Assembly (NCBI GenBank): GCA_025454815.1
Contig: JALONR010000005.1
Span: 21,660 to 85,659, forward strand
Origin: Bacteroidales bacterium
Lineage (GTDB): Bacteria > Bacteroidota > Bacteroidia > Bacteroidales > VadinHA17
Direction: 5' to 3'
Length of the DNA: 64,000 nt
Below the pieces are notes generated by a model. It was not told the DNA's origin. It saw nothing but the letters and a program-made list of their open reading frames with translations, and did no database searches. The position numbers and the translations under genes are program-made. Positions within the stretch are counted from its first letter, which is position 1, and the number at the start of each line of letters is the position of its first letter. Positions 52,489-59,061 of this stretch are shown here, piece by piece.

Positions 52489-53595
52489 TTATTCCTCCCC
52501 GTTTTCCCTTTTCAACCTGTGATAATTCTTCAGCATCTTACCAAAATGCTTTTCCCTCCTTCGTTTCTCAGCAACGGTGGTTGTATATCTTTCCTGTTCC
52601 TTCATCATCTTCAGGTAGTTTTCATACGACTCCCTGTCGATGGTCCCTTTCTCAACCGCCTCCAGCACCGCGCACCCCACCTCATTTAAGTGCCTGCAGT
52701 CAGGGAACCTGCATTCCAAGGCAAACCGGAGAATATCTCCGAAGGTGGTGTTCAGCCCTTCAGCATCATCTGTCAGTCCCAGTTCCTTCATCCCCGGGGT
52801 ATCTATGATGATACTGCCGTTTTCAAGAACAAAGAGTTCCCTGTGTTCTGTCACGTGTCGCCCTTTATTGGTGCTGGTGCTGATAGCTCCTGTCCTCAGG
52901 GCCTCCCTCTGAAGCAGGGTATTAATGAGTGTGGACTTACCCACCCCCGATGATCCGATTACACAATAGGTAATTCCCCTTTTCATCATGCTGATCACCT
53001 TGTCAATACCTTCCCTGGTTACGTTACTTAGCATAATATGCTTCACGCTGCTCTCACGTTTTTCCAGGGCTCTGACAACTGCGTCCATCTCATCCCTTGT
53101 GACGAGATCTGTCTTGCTGAGTACGAGAAGAGGTTCAATTCCGGCTGAGTAGCATACTGTCAGATACCGTTCGAGCCGGTTTATATTGAAGTTGTTGCTG
53201 ATGGCCTGGACGATGAAGGCATAGTCAATATTTGCCGATATTATCTGTATCTCTCCGGGTTTGCCCACTGCCTGACGGGTAAGCAACGACTTCCTGGGCA
53301 GAATCCCATTTATGACAGCCTGGTCAGGGCCGTAGGGAGTAATTGTCACCCAATCGCCCACAGCAGGGAAATCCCTCCTGGAAACGGCTGAGTACCTCAT
53401 GTTTCCGGTTATTTCCGCATCATACTCGTTTTTTCCGTCAGACACTGCGTATCGTTCCCGGTGCTCACGTATCACCCTCGCTATAAGTGACGGATCCCCG
53501 GGGTTTTTCATGATATAATTCTCCAACTCAGGAGTAAGGCCCAGTTCCCTTAGCCTTTTTCCAGGATGTCCTGAATTGTTTTTATCTGAGATCAT
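52489..53595 (-). CDS. rsgA: Ribosome small subunit-dependent GTPase A
   Basis: Circularly permuted GTPase: LSKTD, GSSGVGKSTLINTLL, IDTPGMKELG; zinc-binding CRFPDCRHLNEVGCAV. Confidence 0.94.
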   Translation of the reverse strand: MISDKNNSGHPGKRLRELGLTPELENYIMKNPGDPSLIARVIREHRERYAVSDGKNEYDAEITGNMRYSAVSRRDFPAVGDWVTITPYGPDQAVINGILPRKSLLTRQAVGKPGEIQIISANIDYAFIVQAISNNFNINRLERYLTVCYSAGIEPLLVLSKTDLVTRDEMDAVVRALEKRESSVKHIMLSNVTREGIDKVISMMKRGITYCVIGSSGVGKSTLINTLLQREALRTGAISTSTNKGRHVTEHRELFVLENGSIIIDTPGMKELGLTDDAEGLNTTFGDILRFALECRFPDCRHLNEVGCAVLEAVEKGTIDRESYENYLKMMKEQERYTTTVAEKRRREKHFGKMLKNYHRLKRENGEE

Positions 53596-54323
53596 TTCCG
53601 TAAAGCAAGGTCAAGGGTATGGTTCAGAAGTTCGGGTCCGCCGTGTGAGCCATGCCCCGGGATGACTGTTTCTGCTCCGGGGAATTTCCTGATAATCCAT
53701 TCCACAGTTGATGCATACGCATCCGTGTCACCGTCTGCAGTGTTTCCCAGGTCCCGGGAATCGGCGCTCTTGCAGATGCAACCGGGGAAAAGGATTCTTT
53801 CCGAGGGGATCCATACAACTATATTGTCCATGGAGTGTGCGGCACCGGGAAAGTAACAGATGATCTCTCTTCTGCCGTGATTGAGCGTAAGTGAGTCAAT
53901 AAATGCATGATCAGGAACCGGGAGGTTTTTTGCCATGGCGATCTCCCGCGTGAGTCTGCCGGAGTATGAATTAACCTTCCTGCTCTTCAGGTAGCCGAGC
54001 CCGCCCATGCAGTCCTCATGCCAGTGGTTCGGGACAAAACCTTCTATCCTAAGTCCCATCTCATCCTCCAGGAAGGATACCAGCAATTCGGTCAGGCTGT
54101 CGTTCCAGGGTGTATCAAACAGATAAGCCTTATGCCTGTCAGTGTATACCAGTCCGTTTGCCGGTACACGTCCATAACCAGGCAACACCGTGTACGAAAC
54201 ATGAATCAGGGCATTTTCAGATATTCTTATAAGCTCCAGGTTATCTGAGATTTTAATTGTATCCTGAGACCTGACTGCCTGTTGCCCGAGGAAAATGACT
54301 ATAAATAAGATGACTTTCTTCAT
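53592..54323 (-). CDS. Subclass B1 metallo-beta-lactamase-like protein (CfiA/CcrA-like)
   Basis: Signal peptide; NHWHEDCMGGLGYL (HxHxD), GAAHSMDNIVVWIP, FPGCICKS (Cys ligand + Lys), DLGNTADGD, IPGHGSHGG. Start reassigned to ATG 54323. Confidence 0.88.
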   Translation of the reverse strand: MKKVILFIVIFLGQQAVRSQDTIKISDNLELIRISENALIHVSYTVLPGYGRVPANGLVYTDRHKAYLFDTPWNDSLTELLVSFLEDEMGLRIEGFVPNHWHEDCMGGLGYLKSRKVNSYSGRLTREIAMAKNLPVPDHAFIDSLTLNHGRREIICYFPGAAHSMDNIVVWIPSERILFPGCICKSADSRDLGNTADGDTDAYASTVEWIIRKFPGAETVIPGHGSHGGPELLNHTLDLALRK

Positions 54324-54357: not shown

Positions 54358-54380
54358 AATGCCGCATCAGGTGCGGCATT
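54358..54380 (-). terminator. Intrinsic terminator for the 54402..54794 gene
   Basis: AATGCCGCA-loop-TGCGGCATT, with a T-run on the minus strand. Confidence 0.75.
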
Positions 54381-54401
54381 AAACATTGGTGAATAACAGC
54401 A

Positions 54402-55655: not shown

Positions 55656-55742
55656 GGAGAGATGCCAGAGTGGTCGATTGGGGCGGTCTCGAAAACCGTT
55701 GTCCGGGCAACTGGACCGAGGGTTCGAATCCCTCTCTCTCCG
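55656..55742 (+). tRNA. tRNA-Ser (anticodon CGA)
   Basis: GGAGAGA/TCTCTCC acceptor stem, anticodon loop CTCGAAA, long variable arm, GAGGG-TTCGAAT-CCCTC T-arm; CCA not encoded. Confidence 0.93.
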
Positions 55743-55881
55743 CAACTGATAATACAGGCCGTACTGCTGGAAGGCAGTACGGCTTCTGTTTTTTTAGAAC
55801 TTCGCCGAAGGAGCTTGCTCATGAAGCGAAGGAATGAAAACAGAAGTCCATGCGCCCCGCGCATGCCTGTATTGTCAGTTG
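55743..55881. repeat. Self-complementary multi-hairpin element directly downstream of tRNA-Ser
   Basis: Outer arms CAACTGATAATACAGGC (55743-59) / GCCTGTATTGTCAGTTG (55865-81), one mismatch; inner GCCGTACTGC/GCAGTACGGC, CTTCTGTTTT...AAAACAGAAG containing CTTCGC/GCGAAG, and CATGCG/CGCATG. Confidence 0.8.
55758..55795 (+). terminator. Intrinsic terminator of tRNA-Ser (part of the element above)
   Basis: GCCGTACTGC-TGGAAG-GCAGTACGGC then TTCTGTTTTTTT. Confidence 0.8.
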
Positions 55882-55980: not shown

Positions 55981-56065
55981 ATTTTATATTTCATTCATGA
56001 TTACATACAATAATAGAGTATGACTAACTTATACTTGGGCCTATTTTCCCATTCTCCCAGGTATG

Positions 56066-57001
56066 TTAAACTTTTGTCAATCGATCTGAGATCATTTTTG
56101 ATGAAACGGCCTTATTAAAAGAATTACCTCCTTCACAATGTATCCCTACTACTTTCCCAGTTTCAACATCTAGTATTGCTGACCCCGAATTCCCCCCTAA
56201 TGTTGTGCAATCATGATGGATCATATTGCCATTTTTGCTCACTATTCTTCCAGGCGCTATTCGTTTAACATCATAGATATCTCCGAAAATCCTCTTCATC
56301 ACCTGCTCAATCCTTGGGGATACCCGGGAATCTTTCCAGGGATAACCGACCGTAACAATAACATCGTCTATTGAGGAATCGGCATTGAGTTCAAGCGGTT
56401 CGATATGTTCATCAAGTCTAATCCTGAAAAATGCAATATCTGGTCCCGGGAGTGGCTCAATATACAACGTTTCAATAAGCTCTATTTCTTTTTCTGAGGG
56501 ATTCGAATATTCCTCCAGGAAGTCAATTCTGGCCATTACCGTTTTGCCAAGGCTGTTTATTCTCCATTCGTAACCTTGTGAAGTAGTTTGGACAAAATGC
56601 TCTGCAACATGCCTGTTAGTACAAATTACACTGTCTTTCACCAGAAATCCTGTTCCAGCCCAATCGAGAGACTCATGATTTTTCAGCTCGATTCGACCAA
56701 CGCCGGAAACTTTTTTGCTTAGGCTACTGATGTAAGGTGATAGTTGAGAGTTCCATGTCTCACTTGGCGAAGGATTGAATTTATTATCCTTGATTAGGAA
56801 TGACGGACGATTAAAAGCCTGGATAATGCTTTCCAACACTGGATCTTCCTGACCTTTAGCGACCTCATTCCTAATGAAGCTTTTGATGTTGTTTTTTGGA
56901 AGATTATCCAATAATTCCAGGATCTGGACAGGAAATCTATGTTCAGTAAATCTGGCTTTAATCTCATCTTCCAATTCTGATTGGAATTGTTTTACCTTCA
57001 T
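56066..57001 (-). CDS. Trypsin-like serine protease with unassigned helical N-terminal region
   Basis: His: GTGFLVKDSVICTNRHVAEHF; Asp: PGPDIAFFRI; Ser: TLGGNSGSAILDVETGKVVGIHC. ATG at 57001; no signal peptide evident. Confidence 0.85.
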   Translation of the reverse strand: MKVKQFQSELEDEIKARFTEHRFPVQILELLDNLPKNNIKSFIRNEVAKGQEDPVLESIIQAFNRPSFLIKDNKFNPSPSETWNSQLSPYISSLSKKVSGVGRIELKNHESLDWAGTGFLVKDSVICTNRHVAEHFVQTTSQGYEWRINSLGKTVMARIDFLEEYSNPSEKEIELIETLYIEPLPGPDIAFFRIRLDEHIEPLELNADSSIDDVIVTVGYPWKDSRVSPRIEQVMKRIFGDIYDVKRIAPGRIVSKNGNMIHHDCTTLGGNSGSAILDVETGKVVGIHCEGGNSFNKAVSSKMISDRLTKV

Positions 57002-57022
57002 ATCATTTAACTTTATACGCAA

Positions 57023-58438
57023 TTAATCCAGACTTGAGGTATTAGTTTTCAAATAATTAGCACCTTCCCTTCTTTTATAGCTTGCTTTTCTGTCCGCTTG
57101 TATATTTCCGGAGGCAATGTATCTGCCATCTTTCTCGGTAAGAATAAAACTTACCACAACACCTCCAATATATGAAACACGTCCTTGTCTAAAGGTTGCC
57201 TGAGAAGTCTCAACTTCTCCTCCCTGACTAACCGTCAGTAGATAAAGAAGTTTAGCATTCGGCACACTCTTGATCTGCTCGATAACAGCTACTGATTCAA
57301 GAACTGAAAGTTTATCAGCAGGTTTTTCCGTAATGGATGCAATTATCGCATCAGCGGCAGCAATCTCTTTATCTAGGCGTGCCACAATAGTGGTTCGATT
57401 GCGCTCATATTCACTCGAATTAGAAATTTCCAACTCAAGTTGCTCCAATTTTTCTTCTAACTCGGCTGTACTTTTGCCATCAGCTATTGCCTTGTCAATT
57501 GTCTTATTCAGAACTTCCTTTTTTGCCTTTGAACGAATTAGTTTTTCAGCATCCTCATCTGGTATTGTATCAAAATTCGCATTCAGACTATTTTTTATTT
57601 CCAGCAGCCTGATGCGATTTTCCATAATTTCCTTGATTCCTTTATGAATTTCACCCTCACTGGCAAGATTACATTCAGGCAAGATAATTGTTAGAGCACT
57701 GCTTTTATCCTGTATTTCATTTGCAACAGCAGAAAACAATGCTTGTCTGTTGATAGTGACCGCCCTGTTTGTTAATGAACGGTCGACTTTAAAGAAAGCA
57801 GCAATATCAGCAGCTGCCCCAAGTATAGGAGATGCAGCTGCCAGCACTCCAAGACCTATCACACTTTCTTTTTTAGAAATGTCATAATCAGAATAGGCTT
57901 TAATGGAGTTACGAAGTATTTCATTTACAGCGTCTATCTTGATTTTAAGCAAGTCCCATAGTGCAGCTTCTTCACCGAGATCTGTTTGACCCAGGATAAT
58001 CAATGAGTCGCCTTGAGGATTTAGTTTATCCTTAAGTTCTAATGCAATTTGTCTTGCACACTCATTCAACGATTCATAAGCTAATATTTCTGCATAATAG
58101 CCTGCACCTGCCTCAACCGTAACATCGCCTTGGAGCCCCTTGGTACTGGTTGAGGGCAGTCTTAATGCTGCCTCAGCCTTTTTCGCTTCTGCAACTGCTC
58201 TTAAAGCTTCTGCCTCAGCCTTCTGAGTTTCGGCCAATACTTTTCTTTGATTTGCTAGTTCAATCTCCTTTTCAATCTGGCTTTTTACAACGGGTACAGC
58301 CTGCTGGGTGGAGGATAATTCTTGTGCCATGGTAATTCCATTTAAAAAAGATAAAACAATAAGATAGAATAACACTCTCAGGCAACTAATACTTCCATAT
58401 CTTTTTGCCATGTTGGTTTTAGAATTCCTTTTATTCAT
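57023..58438 (-). CDS. Hypothetical exported coiled-coil protein with internal hydrophobic segment
   Basis: Hydrophobic N-terminus (CLRVLFYLIVLSFLNGITMAQ), Ala/Glu/Lys coiled coils, internal GLGVLAAASPILGAAADIAAFF. Located 21 nt upstream of the protease. Confidence 0.75.
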   Translation of the reverse strand: MNKRNSKTNMAKRYGSISCLRVLFYLIVLSFLNGITMAQELSSTQQAVPVVKSQIEKEIELANQRKVLAETQKAEAEALRAVAEAKKAEAALRLPSTSTKGLQGDVTVEAGAGYYAEILAYESLNECARQIALELKDKLNPQGDSLIILGQTDLGEEAALWDLLKIKIDAVNEILRNSIKAYSDYDISKKESVIGLGVLAAASPILGAAADIAAFFKVDRSLTNRAVTINRQALFSAVANEIQDKSSALTIILPECNLASEGEIHKGIKEIMENRIRLLEIKNSLNANFDTIPDEDAEKLIRSKAKKEVLNKTIDKAIADGKSTAELEEKLEQLELEISNSSEYERNRTTIVARLDKEIAAADAIIASITEKPADKLSVLESVAVIEQIKSVPNAKLLYLLTVSQGGEVETSQATFRQGRVSYIGGVVVSFILTEKDGRYIASGNIQADRKASYKRREGANYLKTNTSSLD

Positions 58439-58986
58439 AGCTTAACAGGTTTTTTGATAATTCCAATAGTTTTGGATAATATTACCTGAATAGAAACTTT
58501 GAATTATATATGAAATCGGACTATTTCACTTTGATAAGAAACAAGAAGTCACAGTTCCCTTCTCATTGTAATTTCATGTAATGCCAAGTCATAAACACTT
58601 TCCAAAGCTTTAATGCATATTCACTTATGAGTCATGACTAAACACTACAACAATATATCCTTAGTTAAAAAAGAAATGGAATATTAAATATCTACTAATT
58701 AGGCTATTAGGCTTACCAAGCCTTTCATTATATCTTTATATAATTCTGGTGACCCATTAGCAGACCACTTTAAATAATTATATAAAGTTATATCACCAAA
58801 AAGCCAAAGTCAAGTTTTTTTTATATGTTGATTTAATGAGTCTATCTGCAGCAAGCAACTGAGTACCAGGATACCAACTTCACAAAGCAAATCTTTCACC
58901 AAGCTGCGGGGAAGTTTTCATAATGAGTTAAAATAAGATCTGATTTAATATCCGATAAACCCATATCATCCTTCTTGTTCAGCCTA

Positions 58987-59061
58987 TGCGCCTATCGAAT
59001 GCCTGTATTGGCGGTTGCAGGTATTCCGGAACAGGCTCACCAGAGGTAATCCCATCCCCCG
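58987..59061. repeat. Copy B1 of diverged direct repeat
   Basis: TGCGCCTATCGAATGCCTGTATTGGCGGTTGCAGGTATTCCGGAACAGGCTCACCAGAGGTAATCCCATCC aligns with copy A with a small gap. Confidence 0.6.

Follow-up and report, generated by a model that had tools for sequence, protein, structure and literature searches.

The bla locus and its catalytic residues

The DNA stretch analysed here (the window) comprises 64,000 nucleotides of contig JALONR010000005.1 from a Bacteroidales bacterium. Its minus strand carries a gene, bla, whose product is very probably (at a probability of about 0.93) a secreted, di-zinc metallo-beta-lactamase (MBL) of subclass B1, belonging to the Bacteroidota group on the CfiA side of the B1 enzymes (putatively group B1-3). 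It is followed by a gene for an RsgA-type GTPase. The features of the locus are listed below, with residues in BBL numbering and assigned by B1 alignment.

52489..53595, minus strand: second RsgA-type GTPase paralog, 368 aa (PF03193 and TIGR00157), with a 4-bp overlap with bla
53592..54323, minus strand: B1 metallo-beta-lactamase gene (bla), 243 aa and stop (NF033088 score, CcrA as best PDB matches, zinc ligands)
53652..53654, minus strand: zinc ligand H263 (PGHG)
53742..53744, minus strand: substrate-binding N233 (LGNT)
53769..53780, minus strand: zinc ligand C221 and substrate-binding K224 (CICK)
53835..53837, minus strand: zinc ligand H196 (GAAH)
54012..54026, minus strand: zinc-ligand motif HWHED (H116, H118, D120), followed by Cys121
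54264..54323, minus strand: predicted signal peptide region, MKKVILFIVIFLGQQAVRSQ (from the sequence and a low-pLDDT N-terminal helix in the structural model)
54358..54380, minus strand: terminator-like hairpin of the gene upstream of bla (pattern scan)

The bla frame (54323..53592) is open over 243 codons, ends in TGA and contains no internal stops. An alternative in-frame start at 54386 would add 21 residues ahead of the signal peptide and run through the terminator-like hairpin, and the start at 54323 is therefore preferred, leaving approximately 35 bp between hairpin and ATG as room for a promoter. Cleavage of the signal peptide is probable beside a Gln, and since the signal region lacks a lipobox Cys, the product is probably a soluble periplasmic enzyme.

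The protein was aligned with CfiA2, IMP-1, VIM-1 and NDM-1 (sequences taken from plasmid records) and with other B1 relatives. The initial annotation had listed all B1 signature positions as present, and the alignment agrees: residues H100, H102 and D104 correspond to H116, H118 and D120 in BBL numbering, C105 to position 121, H163 to H196, C182 to C221, K185 to K224, N194 to N233 and H224 to H263. All six zinc ligands are thus retained (H116, H118 and H196 for Zn1; D120, C221 and H263 for Zn2). The Cys following the HxHxD motif, as in CfiA, is found in 68 of the 90 B1 rows and is therefore not specific to CfiA/CcrA. Two relatives in the alignment carry a changed zinc ligand, namely H116 to Asp in L045 (6001-6732) and C221 to Asp in L097.

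Given the size of the MBL superfamily and a Pfam match of the protein only to the general Lactamase_B family, another MBL-fold hydrolase, for instance of the glyoxalase type, could have been mistaken for a B1 enzyme. This is hardly conceivable here, as non-B1 MBL-fold proteins of the same family carry Asp instead of Cys at position 221 and lack Lys224, whereas both C221 and K224 are present in the window protein, which also passes the cut-off of 200 of the NCBIfam B1 equivalog model NF033088 (243.8 bits, E 1.5e-72). Model score and residues together rule this candidate out, and with the ligand set and the position in the tree described below they uphold the proposed subclass B1 identity. The runner-up models, blaCcrA (NF000322; 232.6 bits) and, as the next allele family, blaDYB (223.5 bits), each have a cut-off of 550, and such low scores place the protein in B1 but outside all named allele families listed.

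Relationship to CfiA/CcrA and the B1-3 group

The initial annotation also likened the protein to the Bacteroides fragilis carbapenemase CfiA/CcrA, and the resemblance held up in the PDB search, in superposition and in the tree. The nearest solved structures, by sequence and predicted fold alike, are those of CfiA/CcrA (1a7t, 1znb, 2bmi), with CcrA chains ranking first in the PDB sequence search (1a7t, E 7.5e-69). The AlphaFold model of the window protein, for which 26 sequences from the window and the loci served as input, reached a pLDDT of 93.7 and a pTM of 0.88. Across 220 columns it superposed on CcrA 1a7t with a root-mean-square deviation of 0.8 A and, relative to target length, a TM of 0.96. 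The two enzymes share their fold, the complete set of zinc ligands, Cys121, K224, N233, the DNIVVW and PGHG segments and the side of the B1 tree. Judged from sequence, the protein is nevertheless not a CfiA allele, since the blaCcrA score lies far below its cut-off and identity to CfiA2 is 42% (102 of 242 aligned positions), or 43% by structural alignment. The DYB family and the CcrA-like MBL of Dyadobacter fermentans (9c3d; 34% identical) have the B1 fold and ligands in common with it, and its identity to ECV-1 is 33% and to MYO-1 30%.

A quick IQ-TREE phylogeny of 93 rows, three of them outgroup rows, was used to place the protein; all supports are SH-aLRT values, and the set leaves out B2, B3, BcII, BlaB, IND and the B1-3 sequences of Berglund et al. 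(2017). The protein grouped with B1 enzymes and not with other MBL-fold hydrolases, though the outgroup rows form long branches and the root is therefore unsure. It groups with four, then six, then eight sequences from its genus and family (supports 99, 95 and 97), the eight sequences of the GTDB family forming one clade (97). The enclosing clade of 41 rows, mostly Bacteroidales (support 97), lies beside CfiA2, and the fork uniting it with CfiA (support 92) is drawn open, while NDM, VIM and IMP are placed elsewhere, off the CfiA side. The orthologs at loci L022-L026, all from uncultured Bacteroidales, are 60-74% identical to the window protein. A B1 gene of 54% identity was also seen in a metagenome-assembled genome labelled Candidatus Delongbacteria (L033), reflecting either transfer or mis-binning.

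Genes of this kind have already been described. Berglund et al. (2017, PMC5637372) reported that B1 genes are over-represented in Bacteroidetes and defined a group B1-3 in which 25 novel families stand together with CcrA. The group consists of chromosomal Bacteroidota genes clustering with CcrA, and MYO-1, ECV-1, ORR-1 and ZOG-1 belong to it. Host phylum and tree position of the window protein appear to fit this group, the order Bacteroidales being assigned from the kinship of its relatives and the position coming from a tree built without the published B1-3 sequences. Such genes are common in Bacteroidota: the B1 cut-off was passed in 62 of 395 sampled genomes of the phylum, and a protein search (matches at E < 1e-30) found a clear homolog in approximately 42 of 393 genomes of the order.

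The enzyme would probably be directed to the periplasm by its signal peptide, where the zinc ions of the Zn1 and Zn2 sites would activate the water that opens the beta-lactam ring, while K224 and N233 would hold the substrate. MYO-1 and ECV-1, assigned to B1-3 in PMC5637372, have carbapenemase activity and contain 1.9-2.0 Zn per enzyme (PMC7443720), and two zinc ions may be expected in the window enzyme as well. Five of the eight B1-3 genes assayed in E. coli hydrolysed imipenem (Table 3 of PMC5637372), a proportion that may serve as a realistic prior for its activity.

Two points weigh against a CfiA-like carbapenemase. Firstly, position 119 is Glu in the window protein and Gly in CfiA, and the L3 loop has Tyr where CfiA has Trp, so that substrate preference could differ. 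Secondly, the other three of the eight B1-3 genes, which account for every negative of that study, failed the Carba NP test, possibly for reasons of expression (PMC5637372), and the imipenem minimum inhibitory concentration was unchanged on expression of ECV-1 (PMC7443720). That the protein is a B1 enzyme hydrolysing carbapenems poorly or not at all, with penicillins, cephalosporins or another amide or ester as its main substrates, is accordingly an unlikely alternative but one that deserves some weight. However, two of the published B1-3 negatives are explicable by rare codons, the catalytic positions are kept across the clade, and bla is under purifying selection. An active B1 enzyme, with carbapenems among its putative substrates, stays the preferred reading.

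Chromosomal setting

Upstream of bla lie a DUF2541-like gene, which scores just short of the Pfam cut-off, and a gene with a YCII domain, and beyond the RsgA-type GTPase gene a convergent gene encodes a protein with a type IX secretion system (T9SS) sorting tail. A recently acquired mobile resistance gene might be suspected from the patchy occurrence of bla, with a B1-like match in eight of 22 congeneric genomes. Nothing in its setting, however, points to mobility. No obvious transposase or integrase was found among the larger open reading frames (ORFs) between 40 and 64 kb, where family scans covered 49.5-58.4 kb and the remainder was judged by eye, so that the earlier statement of no mobile element nearby stands for the ORFs inspected. 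The YCII and T9SS genes recur around the same site in relatives, the GC content of bla (0.496) is like that of its neighbours (0.498 for the window), the eight family sequences form a single clade, and no plasmid record matched the window protein at 60% identity or more. A mobile origin is therefore very improbable, composition, synteny and plasmid search all speaking against it. The dN/dS of bla is 0.08-0.15 across four congeneric orthologs (simple count method, with dS high in most pairs), and both its composition and the purifying selection on it are in keeping with a gene resident in the chromosome, as the initial annotation had proposed.

Several other arrangements were observed. A tRNA-Ser (CGA) at 55656-55743 of the window is followed by a low-GC stretch at 56000-59000 (0.35-0.40 vs approximately 0.50) encoding a trypsin-like protease and a 471-aa protein, possibly an island at the tRNA gene, with no integrase seen. 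In L026 (3370-5796), the genes upstream of bla encode a protein of serine beta-lactamase fold and a penicillin acylase-like linear amide hydrolase, both named by eye. At Prolixibacteraceae-type loci (L041, 195-4833; L042, 2657-7562; L046, 2599-7438; L037, 2667-8195), bla lies between two regulators, with a multi-PAS histidine kinase on its upstream side and a response regulator of the LytTR type on its downstream side (domains by eye). The kinase and bla frames overlap in L041 and L042, where the RsgA paralog follows.

The RsgA paralog and the place of bla among B1 genes

The initial annotation had described bla as translationally coupled to rsgA. The overlap is real, the bla stop and the rsgA-like start sharing an ATGA (ACGGAAATGATC), but the neighbour is a second RsgA paralog. 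The canonical RsgA is encoded elsewhere in the genome (G000:C65), is approximately 35% identical to the window gene, and has a match at that level in nearly every genome of the genus, which rules out a tie of bla to the housekeeping gene. Translational coupling to the paralog may be suggested from the overlap, which one relative shares with the window; in two further relatives the genes are 9 bp apart.

In the seven congeneric genomes with a closely related adjacent bla, which is split across two contigs in one of them (G110), the paralog is open downstream on the same strand in every case. The spacing varies from the 4-bp overlap to approximately 930 bp, as it does among L022-L026, and one or two small ORFs intervene in L025 and L026. 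In the seven congeneric genomes where a trace of the paralog occurs without an adjacent bla, six copies carry frameshifts or truncations and the remaining one has an altered end. L118 and L119 carry single frameshifts, L123 lacks the N-terminus and is frameshifted, L122 keeps an internal piece only, L124 has an internal deletion and G104 (G104:C9) retains 44 residues, whereas the L120 copy is otherwise open with its last approximately 57 residues replaced. No bla remnant was detectable in the locus stretches of the six L-numbered loci. The contrast of 7/7 and 0/7 intact paralogs gives a Fisher p of 0.0006, uncorrected for kinship and with categories drawn post hoc. G097 was set apart: its paralog is open but diverged (52%), and its distant B1 gene lies on another contig.

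Across the order, bla and the paralog co-occurred more often than expected, with a crude p of 4e-9, which became 0.0014 within families and 0.07 when matched for genome size (table compiled by hand, excluding two ambiguous genomes). In genomes outside the genus the paralog frequently occurs with no bla next to it, no shared neighbours of it were found there, and most relatives show no pairing in the stretches compared; a pairing general to Bacteroidales is thus unsupported. A search of the literature for a link between bla and rsgA found one paper, which was unrelated.

That bla and the second GTPase form one functional unit, kept or lost together, is improbable. The pattern is read most simply as a deletion of bla that took the operon promoter with it, followed by decay of the paralog. 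Loss of a shared promoter would explain the decay, and a functional link, possible but unproven, therefore remains a lead; the paralog would then perhaps aid the assembly of ribosomes during the same stress, be it from antibiotics or on the envelope. Paralog decay where bla is missing is the sole unexpected element of the locus, a small and testable genomic puzzle.

The most likely role of bla would be to shield an environmental host from the beta-lactams of its neighbours, through an intrinsic chromosomal gene. The gene adds a distinct, intact lineage, with its closest relatives all in uncultured Bacteroidales, to the pool of environmental enzymes surrounding CfiA, a carbapenemase whose native host is a human anaerobe.
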